Shown here piece by piece: positions 39,310 through 55,176 of a stretch of DNA of 64,000 nucleotides (positions are counted from its first letter, which is position 1; the number at the start of each line of letters is the position of its first letter). The notes beneath the pieces were generated by a model that was not told the origin of the DNA, ran no database searches, and saw nothing but the letters and a program-made list of their open reading frames with translations. The DNA lies in assembly GCF_001705035.1 (NCBI RefSeq), contig NZ_MCIG01000001.1, positions 138,616 to 202,615 of the forward strand, read 5' to 3'. The DNA comes from Curtobacterium sp. UCD-KPL2560 (lineage in GTDB: Bacteria > Actinomycetota > Actinomycetes > Actinomycetales > Microbacteriaceae). The position numbers and the translations under genes were made by a program.

Positions 39310-41256
39310 TCACTGCACCAGGAAGAACTGCTCCCCGATGTCGACCCGGGCACCGCGCTCGACGCGGTAGCGACGTCCCGGCTCACAACGGCGGATCGAC
39401 CCGTCGATGTGCCGGATGACGGTGCCGTTGCCCGACGCCCGGTCCGAGACCCACAGGTCGTCGCCGTCTCGCCCGAACTCGAGGTGCGTCTTCGACACGG
39501 ACTTGCCCGGGTCGTGGATCGTCAGCAGCTCGTCGAACCGCTCCGCCGGCTGCGGACGTGGGAGCCGTCCGAGCAGGCCGGAGCCGTGCACGTCGATCCG
39601 CTCACCGGTGCTGAAGTGCAGGACGAACGGCGCGGTCGAGGTGTGCTTCGCGACGATGCGCGTCTCCTCGACGTCCTCGTCGTCGTCGACCTCGTCGTCG
39701 TCCACCTCGTCGGCGTCGCCGCTCGTCGGAGCGGTGACGGAGCCGATCGGCGGGAGGACCGGACCGGTCGAACCGGGCAGGGGCGGCAGCGGTGCAGCGG
39801 TGGGCGGACGGGACGACCAGGTGGCCGACGCCTGCGGAGCCGAGGGCGGCGCGGCCGGGGCACCCGGGACCGGCGGCAGCGGCGGCAGGACCACCCGCGG
39901 GGTCTCGTCGACGTCCGCGCCGATGTCGTCCGTCCCGTCGAGGTCAGCCGAGGTGTCGAGGTCGCCTGACGCATCGAGGTCATCGGACGCGTCGAGGGCA
40001 CCCGACGCGTCGAGGTCACGACCGTCGTCCCGTCCGGACGGACGTGCAGCCACCTCGTGCTCGCGGGCGGCACCTGGAACGTCGAGGTCGACCCGGTCGT
40101 CGCCGACGAGGTGGTGATCGGTGTCCCCCGCGACACCGGGCGCGACGGCGGCGTCACCGGCCGCACCGGCGTCCGCCGCGTCGTCGGTGTCACCCGCTGC
40201 GCCGGCGTGCGTGTCGGTGTCCAGCTCGTCGCGGTCGGTGGCGGCCCAGTCCGGCCGTGCGATCGGCAGCGGGACGACCGGCCCGGTGAACGCAGCGGTC
40301 ACCGCGGGGCGGACCGCACCGCACTCCGCGCAGAAGATGTCGTCCGGCTCCAGGGTGTGTCCGCAGACGTGACACGTCGTCGGACCACTGCCCGGGGTCA
40401 CGAGCGGCGTGGGGCGCGGTGGTCGACGGTCGACGAGGGGCTCCACGACCGCGGTGTCCCCCGGCTGGGCTCCATGGTCGGTCCCCGCGCTCGTCGAGGA
40501 CGTGGTGGCCACGTCCTCGTCGACCGCGGCAGGGGTCACGGGTTCGCGACCGATCCACCACGACGGCCGGGACGGCGCCACCGGTGCGGCTGGTGCCGGT
40601 GCGCTCCACGCCGGTGCGGCGGCCGGCGACCGCAGGTCGTCCCCGCCCGCTCCGGACGCGTCGGTGGAGGACCGCTCGTGGCGCTGCTGGCCTGCTGTCG
40701 GGTCGGTGGAAGCGCCGGAGGACGTGGCCCGGTCGAGGTCCGGTCGGGCGGCGGCCGGTCGGTCGACGTCCGGACGGGCGGTCAGCTCGTCGACGTCGGT
40801 CGCCGCGGCGGGTCCGGCAGGGTAGGCGTCCGGGTCGAGGGCCGGCTCGTCCGGTTCGGCCGACGGCTCGTCTCGGAAGCCGTCGCCGCCTGCAACGGCG
40901 TCGTGCCGCTGCCCGCTCGTCGGCACCACGGCAGGGGGTGCGGGACGGGCCGCGCGCGGGGCCTCGTCCGCGTACCCGCGGTCCGTCGGTCGGGGCCGGT
41001 CCGCCGCGCGGTCTGCACCGGTGAGCCACGCGCGCGTGGCCGGGTCGAGGGTGGCCTCGGGCAGCCAGGCGTCGGACGCGGGGTCGGTCCGGGTACCGTC
41101 GCGGCCGGGTTGCTGCAGGGGCGGCGGGGTGGCGTGGTCGTCGAGGGTCACGGGTGCCGGTCGGCGGTTCGCCGAGACGGTGACCGATCGGCCGCACTCA
41201 CCACAGAAGATCGCCCCGTCGGGGAGCATCGATCCGCAGTGTTCGCATCTGATCAC
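39310..41256 (-). CDS. Twin zinc-ribbon, C-terminal FHA domain protein
   Basis: Probable phosphothreonine-reading adaptor. The 648-residue product has an N-terminal zinc ribbon (CEHCGSMLPDGAIFCGEC, residues 4-21), a long disordered Asp/Ala/Pro/Thr-rich segment, a second zinc ribbon (CHVCGHTLEPDDIFCAEC, about residue 300), another acidic low-complexity stretch with DASDDLDAS-type repeats, and a C-terminal FHA domain (about 560-648) with LLGRLPRPQ, KSVSKTHLEF and SGNGTVIR. GTG overlaps the TgpA-like gene's stop codon by four bases. In this cluster it probably binds a phosphorylated partner such as the kinase or the other FHA protein. Confidence 0.88.
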   Translation of the reverse strand: MIRCEHCGSMLPDGAIFCGECGRSVTVSANRRPAPVTLDDHATPPPLQQPGRDGTRTDPASDAWLPEATLDPATRAWLTGADRAADRPRPTDRGYADEAPRAARPAPPAVVPTSGQRHDAVAGGDGFRDEPSAEPDEPALDPDAYPAGPAAATDVDELTARPDVDRPAAARPDLDRATSSGASTDPTAGQQRHERSSTDASGAGGDDLRSPAAAPAWSAPAPAAPVAPSRPSWWIGREPVTPAAVDEDVATTSSTSAGTDHGAQPGDTAVVEPLVDRRPPRPTPLVTPGSGPTTCHVCGHTLEPDDIFCAECGAVRPAVTAAFTGPVVPLPIARPDWAATDRDELDTDTHAGAAGDTDDAADAGAAGDAAVAPGVAGDTDHHLVGDDRVDLDVPGAAREHEVAARPSGRDDGRDLDASGALDASDDLDASGDLDTSADLDGTDDIGADVDETPRVVLPPLPPVPGAPAAPPSAPQASATWSSRPPTAAPLPPLPGSTGPVLPPIGSVTAPTSGDADEVDDDEVDDDEDVEETRIVAKHTSTAPFVLHFSTGERIDVHGSGLLGRLPRPQPAERFDELLTIHDPGKSVSKTHLEFGRDGDDLWVSDRASGNGTVIRHIDGSIRRCEPGRRYRVERGARVDIGEQFFLVQ

Positions 41257-43715
41257 GGTGTGTCGTCCTCACTCGGCCGTCCACGACGCTCGCCGGCCTC
41301 CGGACCATGGTAGTCGCGCCGCCCCGGACGCCCCCGGTGGCCCAGGAGTCCCCGTCCGAGCCAGCCCGACTCTCCCGTCAGCGAGCGCAGTGAGACCGCT
41401 GCCCGCCACCGCTGGCGTCGCGTCCGTCCGTCGCGGAGGGACCGCACTGCCTCGGTCGCAGCACTCCACATCCGGTCGGCGGTGCCGTCGTCCGTGTCGT
41501 CCGGTCCGAACACCGAGCGGTCCGCCAACGCCGCGAGTCCGCTGCCACCCTCGCCCGGAGCTCCGACGACGGCCTCCCGGCGCGTGGCCGCACGCGAGAC
41601 GTCGTGACCACGGTCGAGCAACGCGTCGCGGTACTCGTCCCACGCACCGACGATTCGTGCGCGGGCACTCGGTGCGCGGCGACGGCGACGACGACGGAGC
41701 CGCTTGATCGACACGACCACCGCCGACGGGAGCAACACGAGGGCCGCGAGGCCGAGCACCGCGAGGACCCACGGCAGCGCGGCGAGGAGGATCTGCAGCC
41801 AGAGCGGTTGCACGGGTGGCGTGGTCCGGTCGCTCTGCGGCGGTGCCTGCTGGTCCTGGTCCTGCTGCTCGACGGGCGGCGGCGGCACGACCGTCTCGGG
41901 CCGGGTGACGGGCTCCGGCGTCTGGTCCTGTTCGTCGGGGATCTCGCGCACGACGGGGTTCGGGTTGAGCATCACCCAGCCCCACTGTGCGGTGTCGACC
42001 TCGAGGCGTGCGGTGACGTCGGACCCGCGGAACGTCGTCGTCGTGTCCGTCCCTCCGCTCGTCGCGGCGCCGGGGCCGGCGCCGCCACCGGAGTCGCCGC
42101 CGGAGTCGCCGCCGGCGGTGAAGCCCATCACGACCCGCGCAGGGAACCCGAGCTGCCGCGCGAGCAGGGCCGCCGCGACCGCGTACTGCTCCTGGTCGCC
42201 GATCATCACGGGCGCCGTGAGGAGCTCCTGGATCCGGTCGGCGCCGTGTCCGGACCGGCTCGTGCGGTCGTCGCCGACACCGTGGCTGACGTAGCCGGTC
42301 CGCTGCAGCTCGCGGATCGCGTCGAGGAGCGCCGAACCGGGCGCCCCGGAGCCGGGCGCACCGGCCCGCTCCCGGACGGCGTCGGGGACACCGGTGGGGG
42401 TGGGGACGGAGGCCGTGCCCGGTCGCGCGGACGCGAGCTCGTCCTCCGACGGCTGGTCGGGCAGGACGGCGCGCAGTTCGTAGGTCGTCCCGTCGTCGAC
42501 CCCGCCGACGACCGCGCCCGTGCTCGTCGTCCGGTCGTAGAAGAAGGCCCCGCGGTCCGCCTCGGCCTCGCGGCCGGTGAAGGTGACGGACGACAGGTCG
42601 CCGACGGTCGGGAGCCAGACACCGCGGTAGCCCTCGACGCGCACACCGACCCGGACGTCCGTCCCGGTGGTGCCGCTCGTGTCCACCGACGTGGGGACGC
42701 GCTCGAACGTGCCCGACGGCGAGGCGTCGTCGCTGCCGCCCACGCGGTAGACGACGCCGTCGTAGGTGTCGAGGGTCGCGATCCGGACGAACCCGCCGCG
42801 GGGCAGACCGGTGACGCGCAGCTGCGGCGCGTCGGACGTGCCGCGCTCCTCGTACGCCCGGAACCCGCTCAGCGGACTGACCTCGTCCCGGGGGTCGAAG
42901 GGCTTCACGACGTCGGTGCGGGCGACGGTGCGGGGCGCCGCGGGCGGTGCGACGAGCCCGAGGCCCGTCGCGACGACGGCCGCGGCGACGATGGTCCCCG
43001 TCCCGACGAGTGCGGGCCGCAACACCGATCGCCACACGGGCACCCGAGCGCCGACCGTCGCCGCGACGGCCGCGGCGCGTCGGACGTGCCGCACCGTCAG
43101 CGCCCAGACGAGCGCGATCCCGGCCAGGGCGACGGCGGTCGCGATCGACACGTCGAGGCGGGCGGGGCCGACGACGACACCGGCCCCGAACACGACGAAC
43201 GCCGGGATGCTCGCCAGTTCCGGACGGGAGGCGCGGGTCGCCACGCTCACGGACGTCACCGTCGCGACGAGGAGCGTCACGAAGAACGGCACGAGCAGCG
43301 ACTCGTAGGACCCCACCGGCAGCGAGATGGTCACCAGCCGCTTCCAGTCGAGGGCGACCCCGGCGAACAGGTGCAGCAGTCCGGCGCCGCTCGGCAGGAT
43401 CCCCACGGCTTCGCCGGGCACCGCTGCCGGCACACCCGTGAGGGCGAAGGCCGCGACCGTGGCTGCGCCGACGACGACGGCGGGGAGCCTGGCGAGCGCA
43501 CCGCCGAGCGCGACCACGGAACCGGCGACGACCGCGGTCACGGCCGCGGTGGTCATCGCACCGTCCTGGTACACGGGCCACCAGGACGTGCTCGCGAGGG
43601 CGAGGAGGAGCCAGACGACCGCGGTGCTGATGACGACCCGCAGCGGCTCCCAGCGGGCCGCGGTCCGTCGGGCCGACCGGCGCGCACCGGCTCGTGTCTG
43701 CGTCGCGACGCTCAT
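41253..43715 (-). CDS. TgpA-like membrane protein with a substituted transglutaminase-like domain
   Basis: Polytopic membrane protein with an extracellular transglutaminase-like fold (TgpA/DUF3488-type). The 820-residue product has about six N-terminal helices (residues 25-260), an extracellular domain, a TGc-like core and a late transmembrane helix (near 635-660) before a cytoplasmic tail. The catalytic triad is missing: the Cys position reads IGDQEQYA (Gln508), the His position DVTARLEV (Thr568) and the Asp position MLNPNP (Asn584). It should therefore bind rather than cross-link. It overlaps the DUF58 gene and the FHA gene by four bases each, in the conserved MoxR-DUF58-TgpA order. Confidence 0.88.
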   Translation of the reverse strand: MSVATQTRAGARRSARRTAARWEPLRVVISTAVVWLLLALASTSWWPVYQDGAMTTAAVTAVVAGSVVALGGALARLPAVVVGAATVAAFALTGVPAAVPGEAVGILPSGAGLLHLFAGVALDWKRLVTISLPVGSYESLLVPFFVTLLVATVTSVSVATRASRPELASIPAFVVFGAGVVVGPARLDVSIATAVALAGIALVWALTVRHVRRAAAVAATVGARVPVWRSVLRPALVGTGTIVAAAVVATGLGLVAPPAAPRTVARTDVVKPFDPRDEVSPLSGFRAYEERGTSDAPQLRVTGLPRGGFVRIATLDTYDGVVYRVGGSDDASPSGTFERVPTSVDTSGTTGTDVRVGVRVEGYRGVWLPTVGDLSSVTFTGREAEADRGAFFYDRTTSTGAVVGGVDDGTTYELRAVLPDQPSEDELASARPGTASVPTPTGVPDAVRERAGAPGSGAPGSALLDAIRELQRTGYVSHGVGDDRTSRSGHGADRIQELLTAPVMIGDQEQYAVAAALLARQLGFPARVVMGFTAGGDSGGDSGGGAGPGAATSGGTDTTTTFRGSDVTARLEVDTAQWGWVMLNPNPVVREIPDEQDQTPEPVTRPETVVPPPPVEQQDQDQQAPPQSDRTTPPVQPLWLQILLAALPWVLAVLGLAALVLLPSAVVVSIKRLRRRRRRRAPSARARIVGAWDEYRDALLDRGHDVSRAATRREAVVGAPGEGGSGLAALADRSVFGPDDTDDGTADRMWSAATEAVRSLRDGRTRRQRWRAAVSLRSLTGESGWLGRGLLGHRGRPGRRDYHGPEAGERRGRPSEDDTP

Positions 43716-45100
43716 GCCGCGCCCTGCCGGTGCAGTGCGTGCCGGAGGTCGTCGAGGTACCCGACGGTGACGACCGTCAGGCCCGCGATGCGGAGGAGAC
43801 CGGGTCGCGCCTCGGGTTCGCAGACGACCGCGACGACCTCGACGCCGACGGGGAAGCGCGTGGCCGCGAGGCGGAGCGCGGCGAGTCCGACGGTCGACCC
43901 CACCACGAGGAACGCGACCGAGATCCCGGCCGTGTCCGCGCCGACGATCCGGGCGACCTCGGCGACGGGCAGGCAGGAGTCGGAGAGCCCGACGGTGGCG
44001 AACGCGTCGAGGAGCCGGGTCGGCGTGACCGTCGGCAGCTGCTGCACCGCGTAGACCGCGCGCTTGGCGTACGCGGGTGTCGGTGCCGAGACGACGACCG
44101 ACACGTCGCGGCCGTCACGCACCGCGCGCGCGCCGAGCGAGGCCGCCGCACTGACCGCGAGCTCGAACTCGTCGTCGTCCGCGTACTCGCTCCGCGAGAC
44201 GCCGAGTGCGACCACGAGGTGCGATCGCCGGGTGTCCTCGAACTGCCGCACCATGAGGGCACCCGACTTCGCGGTCGACCGCCAGTGGATCGTCCGGGGG
44301 TCGTCACCGGGGACGTACTCGCGGACGGCGTGGAACGCGATGTCCGACGGCGAGAGGTCGCTCGTCGCCTGCCCCTCGAGGTCACGCACGAGACCGGTGC
44401 TCGTCGACGGGACGGCGATCGTCCGCGGGTGCACGATCACCTGTTCGCGGCGCGTCCAGACGACCTCGCGGCGGACCAGCCCGACCGGGTCGGCGCGGAC
44501 CCCGGTGACCGGCCCGACGTCGAGGACGCCTCGGCGCACCGTCGACACGGGGACGTGCTGTTCGGACGTGCCGCGCGGTGCGATCGCCGGGAGGGCGACG
44601 TCGATGAGCCCGGTGCCGACCGGGACCTCGACGGTCGTCGGCACCGACGGCAGGCGCGCAGGGTTCTCGGCCGTCACCACCACGGTGGCCTGGTCGTCGA
44701 CCGCGACGCGGTGCTGTGGCAGGTCCATCCGCACGACGAGGCGCGAACGCCCGACGAGCGCGACGGCCGCGACGACCGCGAGCACGGCACCCGCGAAGCC
44801 GACCACGACGACCTCGCGCAGCCCGAACCGGTACCCCGCGACGAACGCGACGAACGTGACCAGGGCGACCGCCCAACCCAACCCGGTGACCACGGATGTG
44901 ACCGCCGTCCACCCACGTCCGACGAGCCTCCAGACCGTCGACCAGGCCTTGGCGAGGCCGACGACCGCGTCGGCCACGACGCCGTCCCGCTCACCGACGA
45001 GCCGGGTCCGCACGTTGGTGAGGCCCGCGACGGTCCCGGTGCGGTCCGCCGCGTCGCCGGCACGGCGCGACCTGGTGGCGGTGGGGCGGTGGTCCGTCAC
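43712..45100 (-). CDS. DUF58 domain-containing membrane protein
   Basis: A 462-residue protein with a cytoplasmic N-terminus, two transmembrane helices (about residues 70-90 and 94-115), a beta-sandwich part and the DUF58 core with YVPGDDPRTIHWRSTAKSG and LMVRQFEDTRRSHLVVALG. The C-terminal part is VWA-like. DUF58 proteins are partners of MoxR AAA ATPases and may be remodelled by them. The start overlaps the moxR stop (ATGA) and the stop overlaps the TgpA-like gene, so the three are tightly coupled. Confidence 0.92.
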   Translation of the reverse strand: MTDHRPTATRSRRAGDAADRTGTVAGLTNVRTRLVGERDGVVADAVVGLAKAWSTVWRLVGRGWTAVTSVVTGLGWAVALVTFVAFVAGYRFGLREVVVVGFAGAVLAVVAAVALVGRSRLVVRMDLPQHRVAVDDQATVVVTAENPARLPSVPTTVEVPVGTGLIDVALPAIAPRGTSEQHVPVSTVRRGVLDVGPVTGVRADPVGLVRREVVWTRREQVIVHPRTIAVPSTSTGLVRDLEGQATSDLSPSDIAFHAVREYVPGDDPRTIHWRSTAKSGALMVRQFEDTRRSHLVVALGVSRSEYADDDEFELAVSAAASLGARAVRDGRDVSVVVSAPTPAYAKRAVYAVQQLPTVTPTRLLDAFATVGLSDSCLPVAEVARIVGADTAGISVAFLVVGSTVGLAALRLAATRFPVGVEVVAVVCEPEARPGLLRIAGLTVVTVGYLDDLRHALHRQGAA

Positions 45101-46068
45101 GACGCCGCGCGGTCGGCGGGCGGCGGCGTCTCGACGAGCAGCTGCCCGACCACGCTCGTGGTGCTGACGCCGTCGAACTCGGCCTCCGCGTCGAGCACCA
45201 GACGGTGGGCGAGCACCGGGACCGCGAGGGCCTTGACGTCGTCGGGCGTCACGTAGTGGCGACCGTTCACCGCGGCGAGCACGCGTGCGGACCGCACGAG
45301 TCCCATGGCGCCGCGGACGCTCACGCCGAGCCGGACCTCGCTCGCCGAACGGGTGCCCTCGACGAGCCGTGCGACGTAGTCCGCGATGCTCGGGTCGACG
45401 TGCACGGTGCGCGCGAGCGCCGCCATCTCGGTGATGGTCGCGGCGGGCACGACGGCGGCGAGCGGGATCGACACCGACGGCGACGAGGCCGTCTCGAGGA
45501 TGCGCACCGTCGCCGCGTGGTCGGGGTAGCCGATCGAGGTCTTCATGAGGAACCGGTCGAGCTGCGCCTCGGGCAGACGGTAGGTGCCGGCCTGCTCGAC
45601 GGGGTTCTGCGTCGCGATCACCATGAACGGGGCGCCGAGGCGGTGCGTCACCCCGTCGACCGTGACCGCAGACTCCTCCATCGCCTCGAGCAGGGCCGAC
45701 TGCGTCTTCGGGCTCGCGCGGTTGATCTCGTCGGCGAGGACGATGTTCGAGAAGACGGGGCCGCGGTGGAAGTCGAACTCCTGCGTGCGCTGGTCGTAGA
45801 CGCTGATGCCGGTGATGTCCCCGGGCAGCAGGTCGGGCGTGAACTGGATCCGGTTCGTGGAGCCCTGCACGCTCTGGGCGAGCGCGCGCGCGAGGCTCGT
45901 CTTGCCGGTGCCCGGGACGTCCTCGAGCAGGAGGTGCCCCTCGCTGAGCATCGCGGTCACGGCGAGTCGGATCACGAACGTCTTGCCGAGGAGCACCTGC
46001 TCGACGTTCGTGACGATGCGGCCGGCGACGTCGGCGAACCAGGCGGCCTGCTCGGGGGTCATGCTCAT
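45097..46068 (-). CDS. MoxR-family AAA+ ATPase
   Basis: MoxR ATPases act as chaperones for partner complexes, often with VWA/DUF58 proteins. The 323-residue product has EGHLLLEDVPGTGKTSLARA (Walker A GTGKT), FSNIVLADEINRASPKTQ (Walker B and sensor region), ATQNPVEQAGTYRLPEAQLD and the arginine finger region near LDRFLMK. ATG at 46068 is preferred (GAGGACC seven bases upstream); ATG at 46062 is the alternative. It is followed directly by the DUF58 gene and preceded by the giant FN3 gene. Confidence 0.94.
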   Translation of the reverse strand: MSMTPEQAAWFADVAGRIVTNVEQVLLGKTFVIRLAVTAMLSEGHLLLEDVPGTGKTSLARALAQSVQGSTNRIQFTPDLLPGDITGISVYDQRTQEFDFHRGPVFSNIVLADEINRASPKTQSALLEAMEESAVTVDGVTHRLGAPFMVIATQNPVEQAGTYRLPEAQLDRFLMKTSIGYPDHAATVRILETASSPSVSIPLAAVVPAATITEMAALARTVHVDPSIADYVARLVEGTRSASEVRLGVSVRGAMGLVRSARVLAAVNGRHYVTPDDVKALAVPVLAHRLVLDAEAEFDGVSTTSVVGQLLVETPPPADRAAS

Positions 46069-46135
46069 GCGGTGGGTCCTCGTGGTGCTCGTGGTGCGGT
46101 AGGGGCAGCGTACGGGGCGGCGGTGCCGCCGTGGG

Positions 46136-49100
46136 TCACCCGCCGGTGCCTGTGGACGGCGGTGTCCCGGCGGGGGCGGCTTGGATCGCGCGCGTCGCAG
46201 CGTCGGGGTCCTGCTGACCGGACACCGTCGCCTGCACCCGGATGGTGTCGAAGCCGGCGGGGACGGCGTCCGTGGTGGCCCAGGGTCTCCCGGTCGCCGG
46301 GTTCGTCGTCGAGCACGACCCGAACAGTCCGTTCGTGCAGTAGCTGATCCGGTACCCGCTCGGCGTGAGCTTGCCGTTGTTGTCCGGGGCGTTGATGACC
46401 GGAGACTGGCCGACCGTTGCCCCGGCGATGGTCGCACGCGTCGTGAAGGCCGTCCCCGTGACCGGTCCGCTCGCGGCGCAGTAGTCGCCGTCCGTCGCAC
46501 ACGACGTGAACACGATGCTGCTCTCCAGGCCGAAGCCCGCACCGGCTCCCGCCGACGCCGTCCCGTCGAAGCGCACGAGCGGGCCGCCACCGACCGAGTA
46601 GTACAGGAACGGGGACGTGGACGTCGCGCGCACGGTGAGGGTCCACGTCGACCGGTCCCCCGCGTCCTGGACGACCGAGACGGTGCCGGAAGGAGCCGAC
46701 GGCGTCTCGAAGCCCTCGACGTCCGCGGGTGCCGATGCCGTGCAGAAGAGCCCGTTGTCGGCCAGCGCGACGTACCGGTAGCCGCTCGAGATCTGGTCGG
46801 TCGCGCTGGCAGCGTTCCAGACGCGCTCCGCACCCGCCGTCGAGCAGCCGCCCGGGATCGATGCTCCCGCCGGGTACTTCGCGATGCGCCAGCCCTGGCC
46901 GCCACCGCCCCAGTCCGACTCGGTCGCTTGCAGGTCGACCGCCGTGGTCGACCCGCTGCGCTGACCGGTCGCGCGCAACAGCGGCGTGGCCGGGCTGCCG
47001 ACCGCCGTGCCCGAGGCCGACGCCTCGTTCCACTGCACGACCGAACCGTCACGGTCGGCCGCGTTCCGCGCCGACACCCGTACCTGGTAGGACTGTCCGC
47101 CCTGCACGCCGGTGAACGAGGTGCTCGTGGCGGTGCCGACGCTCCGGGTCGTGGAGAGCCCAGGACCGGTGACGGTGACGACGTGGTCCGTCACCGGCGT
47201 GCCGCCGTTCGGTGCGCCCACCGCGTCCCAGCGCACGTCGAGCTGGTTCGGCGTGCTCGTGTCCGGCGTCACGGTCAGGCCCTTCGGTGCGGCCGGCACG
47301 AAGTCGGCGCTGATCGGGACCGAGGTGGCCGAGGGCTCGGAGTCGCCGACGGCGTTCCTCGCGACGACCGAGAACCGGTACGACGCCGAGGGGTCGAGGC
47401 CCGTGACCGTGCACACGGTCGACGTGCCGCAGTCCTTCGACAGCCCGCCCGTGCCCAGCAGCCGGTACCCGGTGATCGGCGAGTTGTTGGCCTGCGGCGC
47501 CGACCACGACACCGTCGCCTGCCCGCCCTGGTACGACCCCGTGCGGGTGGGGGCACCCGGTGCGTCCGGGACGTCCTGCACCGAGACGGTCACGTCGCCC
47601 CACACGAAGCGGTCCGGGTCGTCCGTCGCGTCGGCGACCTGGTACTGCAGGTGCGCGTCGACCGGCTGTGCGCCCGCGGCGACCGCGACCTGGAGCCGGG
47701 ACCGGTCCGCGCTCGGGGTCACCGACACCCCTGCGGGCAGCCCACCGTCCAGGCCGCGGATGGCGACCACGCGGAGCCGCTGCGCCGGGAACGGGTTGGT
47801 CGGCTGGTCGTTGTCGAGCACGTCGACGGTGGTCGACGTGCCGCGCTTCGTGACCGCCCGGTCCGCGCCGGGCTGCACGAGCGGCCGGGTGGACCCGACG
47901 ACGTCGACCGTGACGACGCCCGACCGTCCGGCCGCAGCGGCGTCGGCCACGCCGATCCCGATCGATGCCGACGTGCCCTTCTGCGCCGAGTCGGCGACGT
48001 CGATGCGCAGCTGGCGGCCGTCGACGGTCGCGGTGGTGCCGGACCCGGGCCGGCTGACCACGGACCAGCGGAGCTCGTCGAGGTCGTCCGGGTACGGGTA
48101 GTCGGTGAGCTTGGTCAGGTCGATCGTGCGCGTGTCACCGGGCTGCAGGTCGAGCGTCGAGCCGGTGAACGCCGGCGGCTGGTTCGACCGGGGCGTCACC
48201 TTGATCGGCAGGACGAGGGTCGCCACACGCCCCTTGCCGCCGTTCGCACTCGAACCGTCGGTCACCTCGAACGAGATCGAGGCGCTGCCGTAGTAGAGCT
48301 TCGCCGAGGTGAACTGCAGGGTGGAGCGGTCGACGACGAGGTCGCCGCCGTCGGCGTGGGTCGCCTTGACCGTGCCCCGGTCGGTGATCTGCGCGGTCCG
48401 GCCGTTCGCGGTGACGACGTACCGGTCGAGCGGGATGCGCACCGTCGACTCGCTCGTCACCGTGATCGCGCCCGCGCTCCGGTCGACCTGGGGCAGGGCG
48501 TCGTCGAAGCCGGGGACGTGGATGAACCCGTACGAGGTGACGTCGGGATGGTCCTCGCGGGTCACCGAGAACGGGATCACCTGCGACGCGTCGGTCAGAC
48601 GCACCGCGATGCGACGGTCCGGCGTGACCTGGGCGGTGTCGCCGTACCCGTCGACGACGCCGACCCGGAGGCGGGACGTCGACCCCTCGGCGAAGAAGAC
48701 GTTGCGGAGGACGTCGACCGTGACGCTCTGCCGTCGCAGGATGTCCTGCAGGTCGAGCACGGTGTCGTCGACCTCGGGGCGGAGGGGCCGGGCGTCGGGG
48801 TCGACGGTCACGGTCAGGAACGCCGTGCTCGACCCACCGGTCGGGTTCTCCACCGTGTACAGCACGGCGAAGTCCCCGCTCGTCGCGGTCCGTGGCGGGG
48901 TCACGCGGACCTGGCTCCCGCGCACGACCTTCGCCACCACGCCGTCAGCAGTCGGGGTCGCCGCCGTGACGCGCAGCTGGCCGCCCTCGGGGTCCGAGTC
49001 GTTCTGCAACACCCGGACGGCGACGCTGCCGCCCGGTCGGATCGTGACGCGGTCGGGCTGCGCGACCGGGTCGGAGGCCTGCTCGGCGCGCGGCGCGATG

Positions 49101-51952
49101 CCGACGCGGACGGTCCCGGTCGCACGCGCACCGAGGGCGTCGACGACGGTGTAGGTGAACTCGTCGGTCCCGGCGGAGTAGTCGCCCGCCTCGTAGGTGA
49201 AGGCGTCCGTCGTGACGTCGCTGACCGACCCCTTCTCGGGGTTGTCCGCCACGCCGACGAGCTGGACGGAGTCGCCGTCCGGGTCGATGCCGTTCAGCGG
49301 GACGGTGACCCGCACCGACTGGCCGGCGACCGCCCGGGCGGTGACCGTCTTCGGGACCGGTGGGTTGTTCGTCGCCGCCTCGCGTTCCCGGACGGAGATC
49401 GTCACGGTGGCGTCGGCGTACTGCCCGTCGGGCCCGGCCACGCGGTACACCGCCGTGTGGCTTCCGGGCGTCTTCGGCGCGAGGTAGCGGAGCCGGTCGC
49501 CCGAGACGAACAGCAGCCCGCCGTCGCCCGGCACGTTCTGGACGAGCTCGGGCACGAGGGTGAGCGGCTCGCCCTCGGGCTGGGTGTCGTTCGCGAGGAC
49601 GTCGATCTCGGCCACGTCCCCGACGCGCACCGTGGCGGTGTCGGCCTGGGCGACGGGCGGCTGGATCCGCTCGGGCCGTGGGATCTCGACGACCGTCACG
49701 GTGCCGGTCGCCGTCGCGAGCCCGTTCGACTCCGTGTAGCGGAAGGTCACCGGGCCGTCGAGCGGGGCCGTCAGGGTGACGCGGACCGTGTGCTGGTCGA
49801 GCACGGTGGCCTGCACGCCGGAGCCGCGGTCGGGCCCGTCGAGCGCGGTGACCATGAGCACGCCGCCGGCGGGGTCGGTGTCGGTGGCGGTGACGTCGGT
49901 GTCCTTCGTCGACAACGTCGGGACGAACACGGTCTTCGGTGTGGTGACCGGCGGCGTCGAGGCGTCGGGCGGCGCGAGCACGCCGACGCGCACGACGCCG
50001 CTCGTCGTCTTCGTGCCGTCGGTGACGGTGTACTCGAGCTGGTGGTCGCCGGCCGCCGTGCCCTCGACGCGGAAGGTCCCCGCGTCGTAGGCCGGCGTGA
50101 CGGTGAGGCCGGAGGACGAGGACACGCTCGTCAGGGTCACCGTGCCGTTGCCGCCGCGCACGTGGTCGAGCGGACGGACCTCGAAGGGCTTCCCTGCGTA
50201 GCCCTGGACCGCGAAGGCGTCGGCGCGCAGTGGCACCTGTCCGGGGTCGGCGACCCGCACGGTCATGGTGCCGCGGCCGTCGTCGCGGCCGTCGCTCACG
50301 ACGAGCTGCACCGGTCGGTCCCCCGTGCGTCCGCTCTGGTTGCGGAAGTCGACGAGTCCGTCCGGCGTGGTCGACACGGTGTCGCCGTCCGCGGTCGCCG
50401 ACCGCAGGTACACCGGGTCCCCGTCGGGGTCGACCCAGTCGGACAGCACGTTCGTGACGACGTGGCCGTTGCGCACGACGTCCGCCGACGTCGAGCGGAC
50501 CTGCTGCGGGGGCTCGTTCTCGGACTCGGGCCGGACGGAGACCCGGACGGTGGCCGAGGCCGAGCCGCCGTTGCCGTCGGTGATCGTGTACGGGAACGAG
50601 ATCGTCCCCGTGGCGTCCGCGGGCAGCGTGATCTGGAGACGCTGCCCGTCGCCGACGACGGCCACGGTGCCGGTGCGCGCGTCGACCGCGCCGACGTCGG
50701 CGATCACCAGCGGGTCGCCGTTCGGGTCGTGGTCGTTCAGCAGCACCGGCAGGCTGGTGGTGCGCCCAGGGCGGGCTCCGAGGTCGTCGTCGACGGCGAC
50801 GGGCGGTTTCTGGTCCTTGTCGACCTGGGGGTCGTCCGCGGAGACCTGCTCGCGCTGCTGCTCGTCGTCGCGTCGCACCAGGTCGGCCCAGTTGTCGATC
50901 AGCTGGCCGCTGCGGTCGATGGCCCAGGACCGGCCGCTCCGCGGGTCGTTCGCGACGACGGTGTCGCCGTTCCGCAGGATCTGCAGGTCGGCGACTCCGT
51001 CGGTGCTCGCGAGCCGCTGCACCGCTCGACCACGGCAGGAGTCGACGGCCTGTCCGCCAGCCCACGCCGCGTAGGTGCAGGACCCGACGACGACGGGCCG
51101 GGCCGGGCGGCCGGCGACACCGAGGGCGGTCGCCTCGACCTGCCCCGACGGGCTGACACGGACCAGCCCGGCGGTGCCCGCCACGACGAACGCAGCGGTA
51201 CGGTCCGACGACCGTTGCAGTGCCGGGGCGCTCCCGATGCGGTCACCGAGGTCGACGGGGGTGCCGTCGACCGACAGGGTGCCCGCGGTGCGGTCGAGCA
51301 CCGCGACGTGCTCGCCGGAGGATGCCACCTGGAAGTCGTGGTCGCGGTCGGCGCGCACCTGCCAGCTGCGGTCGACCCGGAGCTGTGTCCCCACGTCGAC
51401 GAGCGACGCGCGGCCGGTCCGCGGCGAGTAGACCGCGACGTGGTCGTCGGAGGCGTCGAAGACCGCGTCGGCGCCGAGCGTCAGGTCGGCCTTGGTGGCG
51501 GCGTCGAACCGCGCGAGCTCCGCGGCCGGGGTCGACCAGAGCTCGCCGGTGTACGTGTTGCCGACGACCGCGGTGTCGCCGGCGAAGAAGACCTGCGGCG
51601 TCCCCGCCGGCAGCGTGACCGGGTCGCCCAGGGTGGCGTCCGCGACGTCCACCTTCGCCACGGTGCCCTTCGTGCGGTCGACGCTGTAGACCTCGCTGCC
51701 GCGCTGCAGGACGCCGAGGTCGTCGCTCGGGCTCTCGACGGCCGTGTTGAGCTCGAGCACCCCGGTGTTCGCCCGGCCGACCGCGCCGTACTCGGCCGAG
51801 GGCACCCACACGGTGCCGTCCCCGAGGTCGATGCGCTGCGTGTGGTACCCCGTGGAGACCACGGCGGCGGTCGCCACGACCGCGCCGACCACCACGGAGG
51901 CGCCGAGCGTCACGACCGCGGACCGCCGCTTCGCGAGGAAGGCCCGGATCAC
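46136..51952 (-). CDS. Giant membrane-anchored Ig-like/fibronectin type III protein
   Basis: About 1,938 residues. A short basic cytoplasmic N-terminus (AFLAKRRSAV) and one helix (VVTLGASVVVGAVVATAAVV) anchor it as a type II protein. The exterior begins with a ~300-residue repeated-strand region that may be a beta-propeller, followed by about ten Ig/cadherin-like repeats with DP[ND]GDP-type loops (LLNDHDPNGDPL, WVDPDGDPVYL, LQNDSDPEGGQL). Two or three FN3 domains (about residues 1490-1690; QDVPDAPGAPTRTGSYQGGQ, ANNSPITGYRLLGTGG) and a Cys-containing C-terminus follow. There is no sortase motif. The start GTG overlaps the kinase stop (GTGA); a GTG 24 bases upstream is possible. Likely an envelope scaffold or adhesin regulated by the kinase. 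Confidence 0.9.
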   Translation of the reverse strand: MIRAFLAKRRSAVVTLGASVVVGAVVATAAVVSTGYHTQRIDLGDGTVWVPSAEYGAVGRANTGVLELNTAVESPSDDLGVLQRGSEVYSVDRTKGTVAKVDVADATLGDPVTLPAGTPQVFFAGDTAVVGNTYTGELWSTPAAELARFDAATKADLTLGADAVFDASDDHVAVYSPRTGRASLVDVGTQLRVDRSWQVRADRDHDFQVASSGEHVAVLDRTAGTLSVDGTPVDLGDRIGSAPALQRSSDRTAAFVVAGTAGLVRVSPSGQVEATALGVAGRPARPVVVGSCTYAAWAGGQAVDSCRGRAVQRLASTDGVADLQILRNGDTVVANDPRSGRSWAIDRSGQLIDNWADLVRRDDEQQREQVSADDPQVDKDQKPPVAVDDDLGARPGRTTSLPVLLNDHDPNGDPLVIADVGAVDARTGTVAVVGDGQRLQITLPADATGTISFPYTITDGNGGSASATVRVSVRPESENEPPQQVRSTSADVVRNGHVVTNVLSDWVDPDGDPVYLRSATADGDTVSTTPDGLVDFRNQSGRTGDRPVQLVVSDGRDDGRGTMTVRVADPGQVPLRADAFAVQGYAGKPFEVRPLDHVRGGNGTVTLTSVSSSSGLTVTPAYDAGTFRVEGTAAGDHQLEYTVTDGTKTTSGVVRVGVLAPPDASTPPVTTPKTVFVPTLSTKDTDVTATDTDPAGGVLMVTALDGPDRGSGVQATVLDQHTVRVTLTAPLDGPVTFRYTESNGLATATGTVTVVEIPRPERIQPPVAQADTATVRVGDVAEIDVLANDTQPEGEPLTLVPELVQNVPGDGGLLFVSGDRLRYLAPKTPGSHTAVYRVAGPDGQYADATVTISVREREAATNNPPVPKTVTARAVAGQSVRVTVPLNGIDPDGDSVQLVGVADNPEKGSVSDVTTDAFTYEAGDYSAGTDEFTYTVVDALGARATGTVRVGIAPRAEQASDPVAQPDRVTIRPGGSVAVRVLQNDSDPEGGQLRVTAATPTADGVVAKVVRGSQVRVTPPRTATSGDFAVLYTVENPTGGSSTAFLTVTVDPDARPLRPEVDDTVLDLQDILRRQSVTVDVLRNVFFAEGSTSRLRVGVVDGYGDTAQVTPDRRIAVRLTDASQVIPFSVTREDHPDVTSYGFIHVPGFDDALPQVDRSAGAITVTSESTVRIPLDRYVVTANGRTAQITDRGTVKATHADGGDLVVDRSTLQFTSAKLYYGSASISFEVTDGSSANGGKGRVATLVLPIKVTPRSNQPPAFTGSTLDLQPGDTRTIDLTKLTDYPYPDDLDELRWSVVSRPGSGTTATVDGRQLRIDVADSAQKGTSASIGIGVADAAAAGRSGVVTVDVVGSTRPLVQPGADRAVTKRGTSTTVDVLDNDQPTNPFPAQRLRVVAIRGLDGGLPAGVSVTPSADRSRLQVAVAAGAQPVDAHLQYQVADATDDPDRFVWGDVTVSVQDVPDAPGAPTRTGSYQGGQATVSWSAPQANNSPITGYRLLGTGGLSKDCGTSTVCTVTGLDPSASYRFSVVARNAVGDSEPSATSVPISADFVPAAPKGLTVTPDTSTPNQLDVRWDAVGAPNGGTPVTDHVVTVTGPGLSTTRSVGTATSTSFTGVQGGQSYQVRVSARNAADRDGSVVQWNEASASGTAVGSPATPLLRATGQRSGSTTAVDLQATESDWGGGGQGWRIAKYPAGASIPGGCSTAGAERVWNAASATDQISSGYRYVALADNGLFCTASAPADVEGFETPSAPSGTVSVVQDAGDRSTWTLTVRATSTSPFLYYSVGGGPLVRFDGTASAGAGAGFGLESSIVFTSCATDGDYCAASGPVTGTAFTTRATIAGATVGQSPVINAPDNNGKLTPSGYRISYCTNGLFGSCSTTNPATGRPWATTDAVPAGFDTIRVQATVSGQQDPDAATRAIQAAPAGTPPSTGTGG

Positions 51953-53346
51953 CGTGCGCCACCGCTCGTCCCGCACCGCTCCGGGCTCGCGGTCCCGGTC
52001 TTGCCGTCACGGTTCACGGCGACGGTGATGCACTCCTCGTCACCCGGGGTCCCCGAGACGACGAAGGTCGTCCCCGTCTGCTGGCTCGTCGCGCCGTCCG
52101 AGGTGATGACGTAGGTGTCGCCGGGGCGCACACCGGGGTCGTCCCACGAGAACGACACCGCTCCCTGGGCGGACTCCGCACGGACGTCCGCCACGACCGG
52201 GATCGACGCCGTCCCGAGCCGCGTCACGACGAGGACGGTCGCGACGGCGAGGGCGACGACCACGAGCGCCGCGGCCGACGCGACCCAGACGACGGTCGAG
52301 CGCGTCCGGGTCGCGGAGCCGGTCCGGTGGACGGTGCCGACGCTCTGGGCACCGACGGACGCACCGCCCTGCAGCGGGCGTCGCGTGCGCCGGCGTCGGC
52401 CGGCCCGGGCCTGCGGCAGGAGTTCGCGCACGACGGTGCGGTCCCGGTCGGCGCCGGGCATCGACGTGGCCCAGGCCTCGACCGCGACCTCGGCGGCGGT
52501 CTGTGGCAGCCCGAGCTCGGCCTCGACCTGCTGGAGGCCGCGGACGAGCTCGAGCACGGTCGACGGCCGCGCGGCGACCCGGCGGGACATCGCGGTCGCG
52601 AGCAGACGGTCGAGGGACGGCGGCACGTCCGGTCGGCCGATCGGCGGGACCCCGCCCTTGTCGATGCGCGCCATGAGGTCGGCAGCGCCGTTCTTCCCGC
52701 CCCGGACCTCGAACGGACTCCGCCCGGCGAGCAGGGAGTAGACCGTCGCGGCGAGGGAGTAGACCTCGGACTGCACGCTGCCGGTGGACTCGTCGGCCAG
52801 CACCTCGGGAGCGGACCACGGGATCGACATCCCGACGGGCTCGTTCGGGTCTGCCCCGCCGATCGTCGCCGCGATGCCGAAGTCGGACAGCACGGGGTTG
52901 CCGTACGCGGTCCGCAGGATGTTCGAGGGCTTCACGTCGCGGTGGAGCACGCCCTCGCGGTGCGCGGTCTCGAGCGCCGAGCCGATCCGCACGCCGATGG
53001 ACAGGACCTCGGACACCGGCAGGGGTTCCCGGCGGTACCGCTCGCTGAGCGACGACGAGCACAGCTCCATCACGAGGTAGGGCCGTCCGTCGGCCGCCAC
53101 GCTCGCCTGGAACACCGTGAGGATCGACGGGTGCGTGCTCAGGCGCGCCATCAGGTTCGCCTCGGCCTGGAACATCTGGCGCACGCGGTCGTCGACGACC
53201 TCGTCGAGCAACACCTTGACCGCGACCTGGCGTCGCGGCATGTCCTGCTCGTAGAGGAAGACGTCGGCGAACCCGCCGGAGCCGAGGACGTGCACCGGAC
53301 TGGAGCCCGGGATGACGGGTGGGTCGGACGGCAGGCGTCGCGCCAT
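51949..53346 (-). CDS. Membrane Ser/Thr protein kinase with FN3-like external domain
   Basis: Hanks-type kinase. The 465-residue product has GSGGFADVF (22-30), the catalytic lysine K44, HRDVKPSN (D137), SDFGIA (155-159) and the APE motif (SAPE). A basic juxtamembrane segment leads to one transmembrane helix (352-375). The ~90-residue outside part is not PASTA; it looks like one fibronectin-type domain (SAQGAVSFSWDDPGV, TYVITSDGATS) with two cysteines. The partner phosphatase and FHA genes are upstream. A TAGAAT box at 53413-53418 suggests its own promoter. It overlaps the giant gene by four bases. Confidence 0.95.
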   Translation of the reverse strand: MARRLPSDPPVIPGSSPVHVLGSGGFADVFLYEQDMPRRQVAVKVLLDEVVDDRVRQMFQAEANLMARLSTHPSILTVFQASVAADGRPYLVMELCSSSLSERYRREPLPVSEVLSIGVRIGSALETAHREGVLHRDVKPSNILRTAYGNPVLSDFGIAATIGGADPNEPVGMSIPWSAPEVLADESTGSVQSEVYSLAATVYSLLAGRSPFEVRGGKNGAADLMARIDKGGVPPIGRPDVPPSLDRLLATAMSRRVAARPSTVLELVRGLQQVEAELGLPQTAAEVAVEAWATSMPGADRDRTVVRELLPQARAGRRRRTRRPLQGGASVGAQSVGTVHRTGSATRTRSTVVWVASAAALVVVALAVATVLVVTRLGTASIPVVADVRAESAQGAVSFSWDDPGVRPGDTYVITSDGATSQQTGTTFVVSGTPGDEECITVAVNRDGKTGTASPERCGTSGGAR

Positions 53347-53412
53347 CGTCGTCGTCCCCTCTCGTGGCGACCGGTCCCGGCGGACGGTCGGTGGTGTCGT
53401 CGCGGTGGTGCC

Positions 53413-53418
53413 ATTCTA
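53413..53418 (-). promoter_or_regulatory. -10 box TAGAAT for the kinase-giant-moxR operon
   Basis: TAGAAT is the closest match to the TATAAT consensus that I saw in the window. Transcription would start near 53405 and give a ~60-nt leader ending in GAGAGGGG before the kinase ATG. No clear -35 element. Confidence 0.5.
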
Positions 53419-53465
53419 CGAAGGGCCCACCGACGGCCCGGTGCCGCGGACTCCCCCGGCATCGC

Positions 53466-53480
53466 CCCCTCTTCGAGGGG
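53466..53480 (-). terminator. Small hairpin downstream of the PP2C gene
   Basis: A six-base stem (CCCCTC/GAGGGG) with a TTC loop ten bases past the PP2C stop codon, just ahead of the kinase promoter. Weak, so partial readthrough into the kinase gene is likely. Confidence 0.4.
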
Positions 53481-53489
53481 CACCGGTGC

Positions 53490-54311
53490 TCAGTGGCGCG
53501 GGAGGGTGTCCTCGAGGTCGCTCTCCGCCGGGGCGCCGTCGACCTGGAGCACGACGACCGTGACGTTGTCGCGGCCACCGGCCACGACGGCGTCACCGAC
53601 GAGGCGCTCGGCCAGCTCCTGGGCGCCGGGGACGCGTGCGGCGATGCGGCTGATGCCGACGTCGCCGAGCTCCTTGGTCAGGCCGTCGGAGCAGATGAGG
53701 TAGCGGTCGCCGGCCCGGAGCGGCAGCGTCCACCAGTCCGGGACCGGCGGTTCGCCGAACCCGACCGCCCGCGTGATCACGTTGCTGTCGGGGTGTTGCT
53801 CGGCGTCCTCGGCACGGAGCAGACCGGCGTCCACCATCTCCTGCACGACCGAGTGGTCGACCGTGACGCGGCGGAGCGTGCCGTCCTCGATGCGGTAGGT
53901 GCGGGAGTCCCCGACGTTGAACACGAGCGCCGCGGGCTGACCGTCGGAGGACACGAGCGCGAGCCCGGTCACCGTCGTCCCGGCGCCGAGCGCGTTGCCG
54001 CCCGCAGCACGTTCGATGTCGGCGGTCGCCAGGAGGAGTGCCTGCTGGATCTGCTTCCGCGACGAGAACGCACCGTCGACCGACTGCTCGAGCCGGCGGA
54101 CCACCGCGTCGCTCGCACGGTCGCCGGCGAGGTGCCCACCCATGCCGTCGGCGACGACGAAGAACGGCGCCCCGACGAGGTAGCTGTCCTCGTTGTGGTC
54201 CCGTCGGCGTCCGACGTCCGTCGCGGCTCCCCAGGAGAGCGTGAGGACGGAGCCGTCGGCCCCGGGGACGTCGATGGCGTGCTCGGTGGCTGCTCGGCCG
54301 AGTTCGGTCAC
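53490..54311 (-). CDS. PP2C-family Ser/Thr phosphatase
   Basis: Metal-dependent phosphatase that reverses Hanks-kinase phosphorylation. The 273-residue product has RRRDHNEDSYLVG, FVVADGMGGHLAGDRAS (metal-binding Asp and Gly), VFNVGDSRTYRI, VTVDHSVVQEMV, CSDGLTKEL and the closing GGRDNVTVVVLQV. It is cytosolic (no membrane helix). Upstream is the FHA protein and downstream the kinase, the classic kinase/phosphatase/FHA neighbourhood. Confidence 0.95.
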   Translation of the reverse strand: MTELGRAATEHAIDVPGADGSVLTLSWGAATDVGRRRDHNEDSYLVGAPFFVVADGMGGHLAGDRASDAVVRRLEQSVDGAFSSRKQIQQALLLATADIERAAGGNALGAGTTVTGLALVSSDGQPAALVFNVGDSRTYRIEDGTLRRVTVDHSVVQEMVDAGLLRAEDAEQHPDSNVITRAVGFGEPPVPDWWTLPLRAGDRYLICSDGLTKELGDVGISRIAARVPGAQELAERLVGDAVVAGGRDNVTVVVLQVDGAPAESDLEDTLPRH

Positions 54312-54354
54312 GGTTTCAGGGTCGCTCTCTGGGGGTTCGGGGCGTGCCGGCCGG

Positions 54355-55176
54355 TCAGCCGGTCACCGGTGCCGAGGGGACGGGCGGGAGACGGTCGGAG
54401 GAACCGACACGCAGGTGCGGCGACAGGACCTCGATGACGTTGCCGTCACCGATCTCGACGAGCGTACCGGTCAGGACGACGATCGAGGCACCCGCGGGCA
54501 TGCGCGACGCGGCCGCCCCGGCGGGTCGGATCACGGTGCCGTTCGTCGAGCGCAGGTCCTCGACGACGACGGCCTCGCCCTCGGCGTGCAGGGCGACGTG
54601 CGACGACGAGACCTGACCGCTCGGCGAGGGCACGGTCACCAGCTCGGGTCCGGGTCCGGTCAGGACGCGGGGCGGCGACGGCCTGCGGCCGACGACGACG
54701 GGACGGTCGAGCCGGACCGTCCGACCGCCGACGCGGACGGACGGGACGCGCGTCCGGGTCGCCGTCGGTCCCGTCCCGGGCACGCCGGTCTGGAGGCCCG
54801 ACACACGGTGGTCAGGACGTCCCCCCGTGGTCGTCTGGTCGGTTCCGAGCGGGTGCGGCGGTCGGCTCACGAGGACGGTGTCGTCGTGTCGGCTCCGCAC
54901 GATCGTGTCGTCCGGCGAGCCCCCGGCGCCGGGCGAGCCCGCTGCGCCGAACGACCGCGCGACGATGACCGTGTCCCCGAGGTCGTCGCGGTCCGGCCCC
55001 GTGACGACCGACGGGCGGGCCGCCCGCAGCACCGTGTCGTCCGCCGCACCGCCGCTGCAACGCCGATCAGCGTCCGCCGCTTCGACGAGCGCCCGCTGGG
55101 GCCGCGCCTGCTCGACGCCCGCCCGTGCTCCGACGTCGCTGACGGGCACCTCGCCGTCGTTGGTGTCTCGCTGCAT
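54355..55176 (-). CDS. FHA domain protein with repeated DT[VI] motifs
   Basis: A 273-residue cytosolic protein. The N-terminal half is disordered and carries four similar threonine motifs: DDTVLRAAR (Thr48), GDTVIVAR (Thr69), DDTIVRSR (Thr91) and DDTVLVSR (Thr100), likely phospho-acceptor or FHA-binding sites. The FHA domain (about 155-255) has VVVGRRPSPPRVL, SGQVSSSHVALHAEG and DLRSTNGTVI. ATG at 55176 is preceded by GGAG; GTG at 55182 overlaps the upstream stop and is an alternative start. It precedes the PP2C and kinase genes. Confidence 0.9.
   Translation of the reverse strand: MQRDTNDGEVPVSDVGARAGVEQARPQRALVEAADADRRCSGGAADDTVLRAARPSVVTGPDRDDLGDTVIVARSFGAAGSPGAGGSPDDTIVRSRHDDTVLVSRPPHPLGTDQTTTGGRPDHRVSGLQTGVPGTGPTATRTRVPSVRVGGRTVRLDRPVVVGRRPSPPRVLTGPGPELVTVPSPSGQVSSSHVALHAEGEAVVVEDLRSTNGTVIRPAGAAASRMPAGASIVVLTGTLVEIGDGNVIEVLSPHLRVGSSDRLPPVPSAPVTG

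Follow-up and report, generated by a model that had tools for sequence, protein, structure and literature searches.

The stretch of DNA analysed here, referred to below as the window, comprises 64,000 nucleotides of Curtobacterium sp. UCD-KPL2560 and carries on its minus strand a gene cluster that opens with the gene for an FHA-domain protein (FHA1), followed by those for a PP2C-type phosphatase (PP2C), a Ser/Thr kinase, an Ig/fn3 protein, a MoxR ATPase, a DUF58 protein, a transglutaminase-type protein and a second FHA protein, FHA2 (Table 1). The kinase, fn3, MoxR, DUF58, transglutaminase and PP2C genes recur together with both FHA genes in 20/20 Curtobacterium loci, each of ~19 kb. Parts of this gene set (window 39310-55176) are also found in other families of the order. 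In the translation of 54355-55176 (minus strand), FHA1 starts at an ATG with GGAG upstream.

Table 1. Genes, domains and candidate phosphorylation sites of the cluster, with positions in the window unless residues are given
Feature	Position	Strand	Remarks
FHA1, FHA-domain protein, 273 aa	54355..55176	minus	PF00498 match, E 5.8e-05
FHA1 low-complexity N-terminal segment	residues 1 to about 145		
FHA1 tag copy 1, DDTVLR, Thr48	55024..55041	minus	+3 Arg
FHA1 tag copy 2, GDTVIV, Thr69	54961..54978	minus	+3 Val, degenerate; relatives have GDTVIR
FHA1 tag copy 3, DDTIVR, Thr91	54895..54912	minus	+3 Arg
FHA1 tag copy 4, DDTVLV, Thr100	54868..54885	minus	+3 Val, degenerate
FHA1 FHA domain, about residues 146-252	54421..54741	minus	
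FHA1 Gln188	54613..54615	minus	Rad53 Arg83 position
PP2C-type Ser/Thr phosphatase, 273 aa	53490..54311	minus	
PP2C C-terminal tag, EDTLPRH-stop, Thr269	53493..53513	minus	
Transmembrane Ser/Thr protein kinase, 465 aa	51949..53346	minus	
Kinase juxtamembrane linker tag, DRTVVR, Thr304	52426..52443	minus	
Large Ig/cadherin-like protein, 1946 aa	46136..51976	minus	two fn3 domains
MoxR-type AAA ATPase	45097..46080	minus	start approximate
DUF58 protein	43712..45100	minus	
TgpA_N/transglutaminase-core membrane protein	41253..43715	minus	
FHA2, zinc-ribbon and C-terminal FHA protein, 648 aa	39310..41256	minus	
FHA2 conserved site, VEETRIV, Thr532	39652..39672	minus	+3 Val; directly before FHA2 domain

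By every test run FHA1 is an FHA protein, with a canonical domain that is predicted to bind pThr. The PF00498 profile matches residues 161-216 at 23.9 bits (cut-off 20.7), and a model of the domain built on a 97-row alignment of FHA1 relatives shows the beta-sandwich fold in 11 strands at a mean pLDDT of 92.3. A structure search with this model found 64 PDB chains with E values of at most 0.001, mostly FHA domains by name among the top 50 listed (VIA, best 50 entries: Z 10.3-12.6 over about 87-108 residues, rmsd 1.7-3.8); FhaA/Rv0020c, OdhI, GarA, EmbR and Rad53 are among the structural matches, and FhaA is also the best PDB match by sequence. The pThr-contact residues of FHA1 are R164, S190, H193, T211 and N212, and across the alignment the corresponding site (Rad53 R70, S85, T106 and N107 plus the conserved H88) retains R, S, H and N in 97/97 rows and T in 89/97. 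Composition, length variation and poor alignment suggest that the part of the protein N-terminal to this domain is disordered; a full-length AF2 model (14 rows) was poor, at pLDDT 43 and pTM 0.21, and uninformative on either disorder or cis binding.

It is in this N-terminal part that an earlier note on the sequence had placed four short repeated motifs, at T48, T69, T91 and T100, ahead of an FHA domain. Translation and the PF00498 match bear out both the residues and the arrangement, and the quoted span of 54875-55040 was right to within a few bases (cores 54868-55041). DT[VI][VIL] occurs four times in residues 1-145 against 0.035 expected, and four copies were reached in 0/200,000 shuffles. 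Each Thr is, as described in the note, preceded by acidic residues and followed by an arginine, with Asp at -1 in 4/4 copies and Arg at +3 (T48, T91) or +5 (T69, T91, T100). Copy 1 aligns with a motif in which D47, T48 and V49 are invariant across 14 genes. A search of the DNA of the same genome for codons of DDT[VI][VIL/M], a pattern that misses GDT and is therefore blind to T69 and to similar sites elsewhere in the genome, gave 26 matches, and when the reading frames in the 3 kb around each were inspected more than one match was found only in the FHA1 gene.

From 36 genomes of the genus we recovered 30 Curtobacterium FHA1 loci, our own included, and left out L018 and L012, the latter because its reading frame is broken across the N-terminal part of FHA1. 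The motifs are present in all 28 remaining, readable genes, with 108 copies of DT[VIL][VIL] at 3-6 per gene, an outcome opposite to the lack of motifs in orthologues by which the earlier note would have been refuted. The note had also expected a hydrophobic residue at +3, and here the orthologues contradict it: the +3 residue is Arg in 101 of the 108 copies, Gly in 4, Val in 2 and Ala in 1. The two Val+3 copies are T69 and T100 of the window protein itself, which, with Arg+3 in two of its four copies, is a degenerate example of its own family. The extended form [DE]T[VIL][VIL]R numbers 101 copies in the 28 genes against 0.14 expected from shuffles. These are encoded by 44 distinct DNA 15-mers (Thr codons ACC 57, ACG 43, ACA 1), which indicates that the peptide, rather than the DNA, is conserved; Asp at -1 and Arg at +3 are kept while the linkers between copies diverge. 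In the frame [DE]x[VIL][VIL]R, x is Thr in 101/101 cases and never Ser. Bacterial Ser/Thr kinases may favour Thr in any case, so this strictness is weak evidence for an FHA ligand. In L012 / the L239 assembly (completeness 65%) the N-terminal part and the FHA domain of FHA1 lie in different reading frames, probably through assembly errors.

In other members of the family, for which 67 loci, 16 of them without FHA1 beside PP2C, yielded 51 FHA1 genes, the core [DE]T[VIL][VIL] occurs in 30 (62 copies against 1.96 expected) and was not found in 21. Arg at +3 is weaker outside Curtobacterium, at 25/62 copies. Among named loci, whose records overlap the other genomes counted and are not independent of them, at least one copy is present in 34/35 from Curtobacterium, 5/5 from Frigoribacterium (2-3 copies), 7/7 from Leifsonia (one copy) and 9/11 from Agromyces (1-2 copies). 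Beyond this family, the FHA1 proteins of the order frequently have a single site in place of these copies, for example DHDGxT[IV]x.

FHA domains require pThr, and the two classes of FHA motif named in a review, pTxx[ILV] and pTxx[DE], do not include pTxxR (PMC8786283). Literature searches for FHA with pTXXR and for the tag motif, both over open-licence papers, found no paper. In the FHA1 domain of Rad53 the choice of +3 residue is reported to be set by the residue two before the pThr-contact Ser (PMC4037201, PMC5041073), Arg83, which holds the ligand Asp+3 by a salt bridge (PMC5041073). We placed the equivalent of this residue in our FHA1 alignment by its distance from the contact Ser and from the conserved His, and it is Asp or Glu in 71/97 rows, Gln in 15 and Arg in 1. 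An acidic side chain here would be a charge reversal relative to Rad53 and would suit Arg at +3, a fit that has its counter-point in Curtobacterium: the genus with the strongest Arg+3 in FHA1 has Gln here rather than Asp or Glu (12/13 Curtobacterium relatives in the alignment, plus the window). By clade (window 54598-54615), the residue is Gln in Curtobacterium, Glu in the majority of other family members and Asp in the majority of the order's other families. Ser or Thr takes this position in 19/20 of the second FHA hits, mostly FHA2, from the order-level loci.

With the conservation and layout of its motifs upheld and its hydrophobic +3 set aside, the earlier note's interpretation was partly right; what it missed are related tags in two further proteins of the cluster, at the tail of PP2C and in the linker of the kinase. 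PP2C ends in EDTLPR[HR]-stop in 20/20 Curtobacterium loci. In a set of 41 order-level, FHA1-linked loci, 4 of which have no PP2C on the strand, acidic-x(0-2)-T-x-P-[RST] occurs in 28/37 PP2C tails against 0.47 expected. This pattern, like that for the kinase, was defined after sequences had been seen, and the 27 loci fetched once it was in mind contain it in 19. Tails of PstP-type paralogues, drawn from 30 genomes of which nearly all were also sources of the order-level loci, show the pattern in 1/30 (expected 1.06), giving Fisher p values of 5e-10 for 28/37 and 8e-08 for 19/27. Within the family the PP2C tag is patchy, at 14/51 loci with FHA1 and 1/16 without; among the named loci it was seen in 0/10 from Agromyces and 1/7 from Leifsonia. 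The order-level tails of L177, L158, L159 and L154 contain T-x-P-R twice or three times, which suggests that this tag, too, may be able to multiply.

In the kinase, the linker between the catalytic domain and the membrane helix has Thr at one alignment position in 96/101 sequences, a column that was chosen as a conserved Thr in the alignment, and the residue at +3 from it is Arg or Lys in 20/20 Curtobacterium, 39/49 other family and 29/32 order-level kinases. The +2 residue is mostly Val, Ile or Leu; Arg predominates at -1, and outside Curtobacterium also at +1. A pattern test on the family linkers was weak (5/49 against 2.04 expected) because most of them have Arg at +1, so that the site is visible only in the alignment; a stricter pattern was found in 17/33 order-level loci against 0.67 expected. 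We then scored the 20 Curtobacterium clusters by column, under a rule set after FHA1, PP2C and the kinase had been seen (Thr in >=80%, acidic at -1 or -2, hydrophobic at +1, Arg at +3). In these three proteins 5/42 conserved Thr columns fit the rule (FHA1 3, PP2C 1, kinase 1), against 0/236 in the other cluster proteins; MoxR, DUF58, the transglutaminase, the Ig protein and FHA2 have no such column, and the hypothetical gene at 38212-39213 aligned too poorly to judge. Activation segments of kinases usually have a Thr before the APE region. That of the window kinase, VGMSIPWSAPE (52804-52836), is without it, and GxSIPWSAPE-like segments occur also in the 12 family kinases inspected.

The zinc-ribbon protein FHA2, which the earlier note had put forward as a partner, has a different site in Curtobacterium. 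A TRIV sequence precedes its FHA domain in 20/20 loci and is a second candidate phosphosite, with Val and not Arg at +3; two relatives from other families have DRTQVR and ERTQVR. Given the Ser at its Arg83 position, FHA2 appears less likely to read the FHA1-type tag. Further candidate readers may exist among the genome's other FHA proteins (7 domains).

The tags are thus present, clustered and conserved in a cluster shared with a canonical FHA domain, and we lean, by a modest degree, towards FHA1 being the pThr reader of this kinase/phosphatase cluster, its acidic-T-x-x-R tags being phosphorylated by the kinase and bound by FHA1. The acidic-D-T-[VI]-[VIL]-R of FHA1, the E-D-T-L-P-R of PP2C and the D-R-T-x-[VIL]-R of the kinase would be versions of one acidic-T-x-x-R tag, and their resemblance suggests one phosphorylation code that ties the three proteins together. 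From this we infer phosphorylation of the tags, their binding by an FHA domain and a direction of regulation, as follows. The kinase would autophosphorylate its own linker and phosphorylate the tags of FHA1 and PP2C; the FHA1 domain would bind pT-x-x-R tags, Arg+3 being favoured by the acidic or amide side chain at the position of Rad53 Arg83. Binding of the kinase linker would dock FHA1 for multisite phosphorylation, binding of FHA1 to its own phosphorylated tags would close or cross-link the protein, and binding of the PP2C tail would recruit the eraser that resets the system. Precedents are reported for several of these steps: a juxtamembrane pThr of PknB binds FhaA (cited in PMC12077195), the N-terminal pThr of PknG docks GarA/OdhI (PMC8546545), closure has been proposed for GarA and cross-linking has been described for TIFA (PMC8786283). 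As for the writer, M. tuberculosis peptides that lose phosphorylation when PknA is depleted reportedly show an excess of acidic residues at -1 and from -3 to -6, of Pro at +2 and of basic residues at +4 (PMC7164672). With Arg at -1 and often at +1 in the kinase tag, and Pro at +2 in the PP2C tag, what these tags share may be a single consensus of the kinase instead of a single FHA ligand.

The alternative closest to the earlier note is that FHA1 works by GarA/OdhI-like self-inhibition in cis alone, the Thr sites of kinase and phosphatase merely reflecting the substrate consensus of the kinase. GarA and OdhI are reported to use a phosphorylated N-terminal ETTS motif together with an FHA domain that docks on kinases (PMC8546545), the close structural neighbours of our domain model include, by entry titles, two in which an FHA protein is paired with a phosphorylated N-terminal segment of its own, DgcB (6hc1) and MDC1, and in many Curtobacterium genes the first tag lies at most about 12 residues from the likely start. 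One tag would nevertheless be enough for such a switch, and Curtobacterium keeps 3-6; the PP2C tag, moreover, sits at the extreme C-terminus and is found in 1/30 PstP-type paralogues, as would be expected of a docking tag. We regard cis closure alone as unlikely; with the related tags of PP2C and the kinase taken into account, docking of these two enzymes is no less likely than self-inhibition of FHA1. A kinase consensus could also operate with no FHA partner at all, each phosphosite acting locally on phosphatase activity, the kinase linker or FHA1 solubility. The tags do resemble the PknA-dependent sites of M. tuberculosis (PMC7164672), and in streptococci, where FHA domains are lacking, juxtamembrane kinase sites are reported to be phosphorylated as well (PMC12077195). 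That the copies cluster beside a canonical FHA domain, with strict Thr, and that the three tags co-occur in one cluster that includes FHA1 argue against it, and we hold local action to be improbable, slightly more so than cis closure.

A role independent of phosphorylation, for instance as a beta-strand peptide imitating the FHA strand NGTV[IV]RP and serving FHA1 self-assembly or binding to a membrane partner, draws on the likeness of GDTVIRP to the NGTVIRP or NGTVVRP of the FHA1 domain. We consider it very unlikely, as NGT is a general FHA signature and the acidic residues, as well as the PP2C and kinase versions, would go unexplained. Finally, DT[VI] might arise by chance or duplication where a disordered segment is prone to repeats and the genome is rich in GC, and the DTVIRPVPP repeats of L002 and L007 do look like recently duplicated copies; the shuffles and the orthologues refute such an origin, however, with both observed counts (101 and 62) far above those expected, 44 distinct 15-mers and flanking Asp and Arg residues that persist between diverging linkers, and we reject it as having next to no probability.

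We retain FHA1 as the putative reader, and the tags allow a bolder form of this reading to be sketched. In such a self-wired phospho-code, the kinase, phosphatase and reader of one operon would share the acidic-T-x-x-R tag, the +3 pocket of the FHA domain would be charge-reversed relative to Rad53 FHA1 to make a pTxxR reader, and in Curtobacterium the number of tags on the reader itself would have grown to 3-6. Once phosphorylated, such a reader could pass from the monomeric state into a cross-linked network, by which kinase and phosphatase would be brought together at the membrane. We offer this full scheme tentatively and would sooner doubt than expect it. FHA ligands in bacteria have usually been found singly, by experiment; here a comparison of genomes suggests that reader, writer and eraser share a tag, and it yields a prediction at the level of residues, namely that an acidic residue would lie opposite Arg+3.

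Among known FHA systems, GarA and OdhI resemble FHA1 in being small FHA proteins with a Thr site N-terminal to the FHA domain, which is reported to dock phosphorylated kinase segments (PMC8546545). FHA1 differs in lacking ETTS, in carrying several D-T-V-[IV]-R tags (3-6 in Curtobacterium) in place of one ETTS, and in being encoded in a kinase/PP2C/MoxR/DUF58/transglutaminase cluster. Identity with GarA/OdhI by motif was rejected, ETTS being absent and the sites reading DDTVLR, GDTVIV, DDTIVR and DDTVLV, as was identity with FhaB/FipA, for which NF049868 scored 24 bits against an equivalog cut-off of 125. FhaA (Rv0020c) shares with the proposed reader an FHA domain that binds a phosphorylated juxtamembrane linker, that of PknB (cited in PMC12077195), and is reported to be phosphorylated on 23 residues (PMC7164672); it is, in contrast, encoded elsewhere. 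The pTxxD reader Rad53 FHA1 differs in having Arg at the position that sets +3, where FHA1 relatives mostly have Asp or Glu and those of Curtobacterium have Gln.

In its gene content the cluster matches the PFNA operon of Bifidobacterium, which is reported to consist of pkb2, fn3, aaa-atp, duf58, tgm, prpC, a hypothetical gene and fha (PMC8430577). Both have genes for a kinase, a large fn3 protein (1946 aa here, a reported 1994 aa in B. longum), MoxR, DUF58, a transglutaminase, PP2C and FHA, the first five of which are adjacent in the window; they differ in that FHA1 and PP2C here precede the kinase and that two FHA proteins are present. PFNA has been described as restricted to bifidobacteria (PMC10688814), and the cluster reported here indicates that the gene set is not so confined. 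The available portions of these two papers (PMC8430577, PMC10688814) mention no Thr tag in the FHA, PP2C or kinase proteins, and the published PFNA models put their emphasis on the kinase and on the fn3 protein. The tag scheme proposed here would assign a molecular role to FHA and phosphatase as well in operons of the PFNA type.
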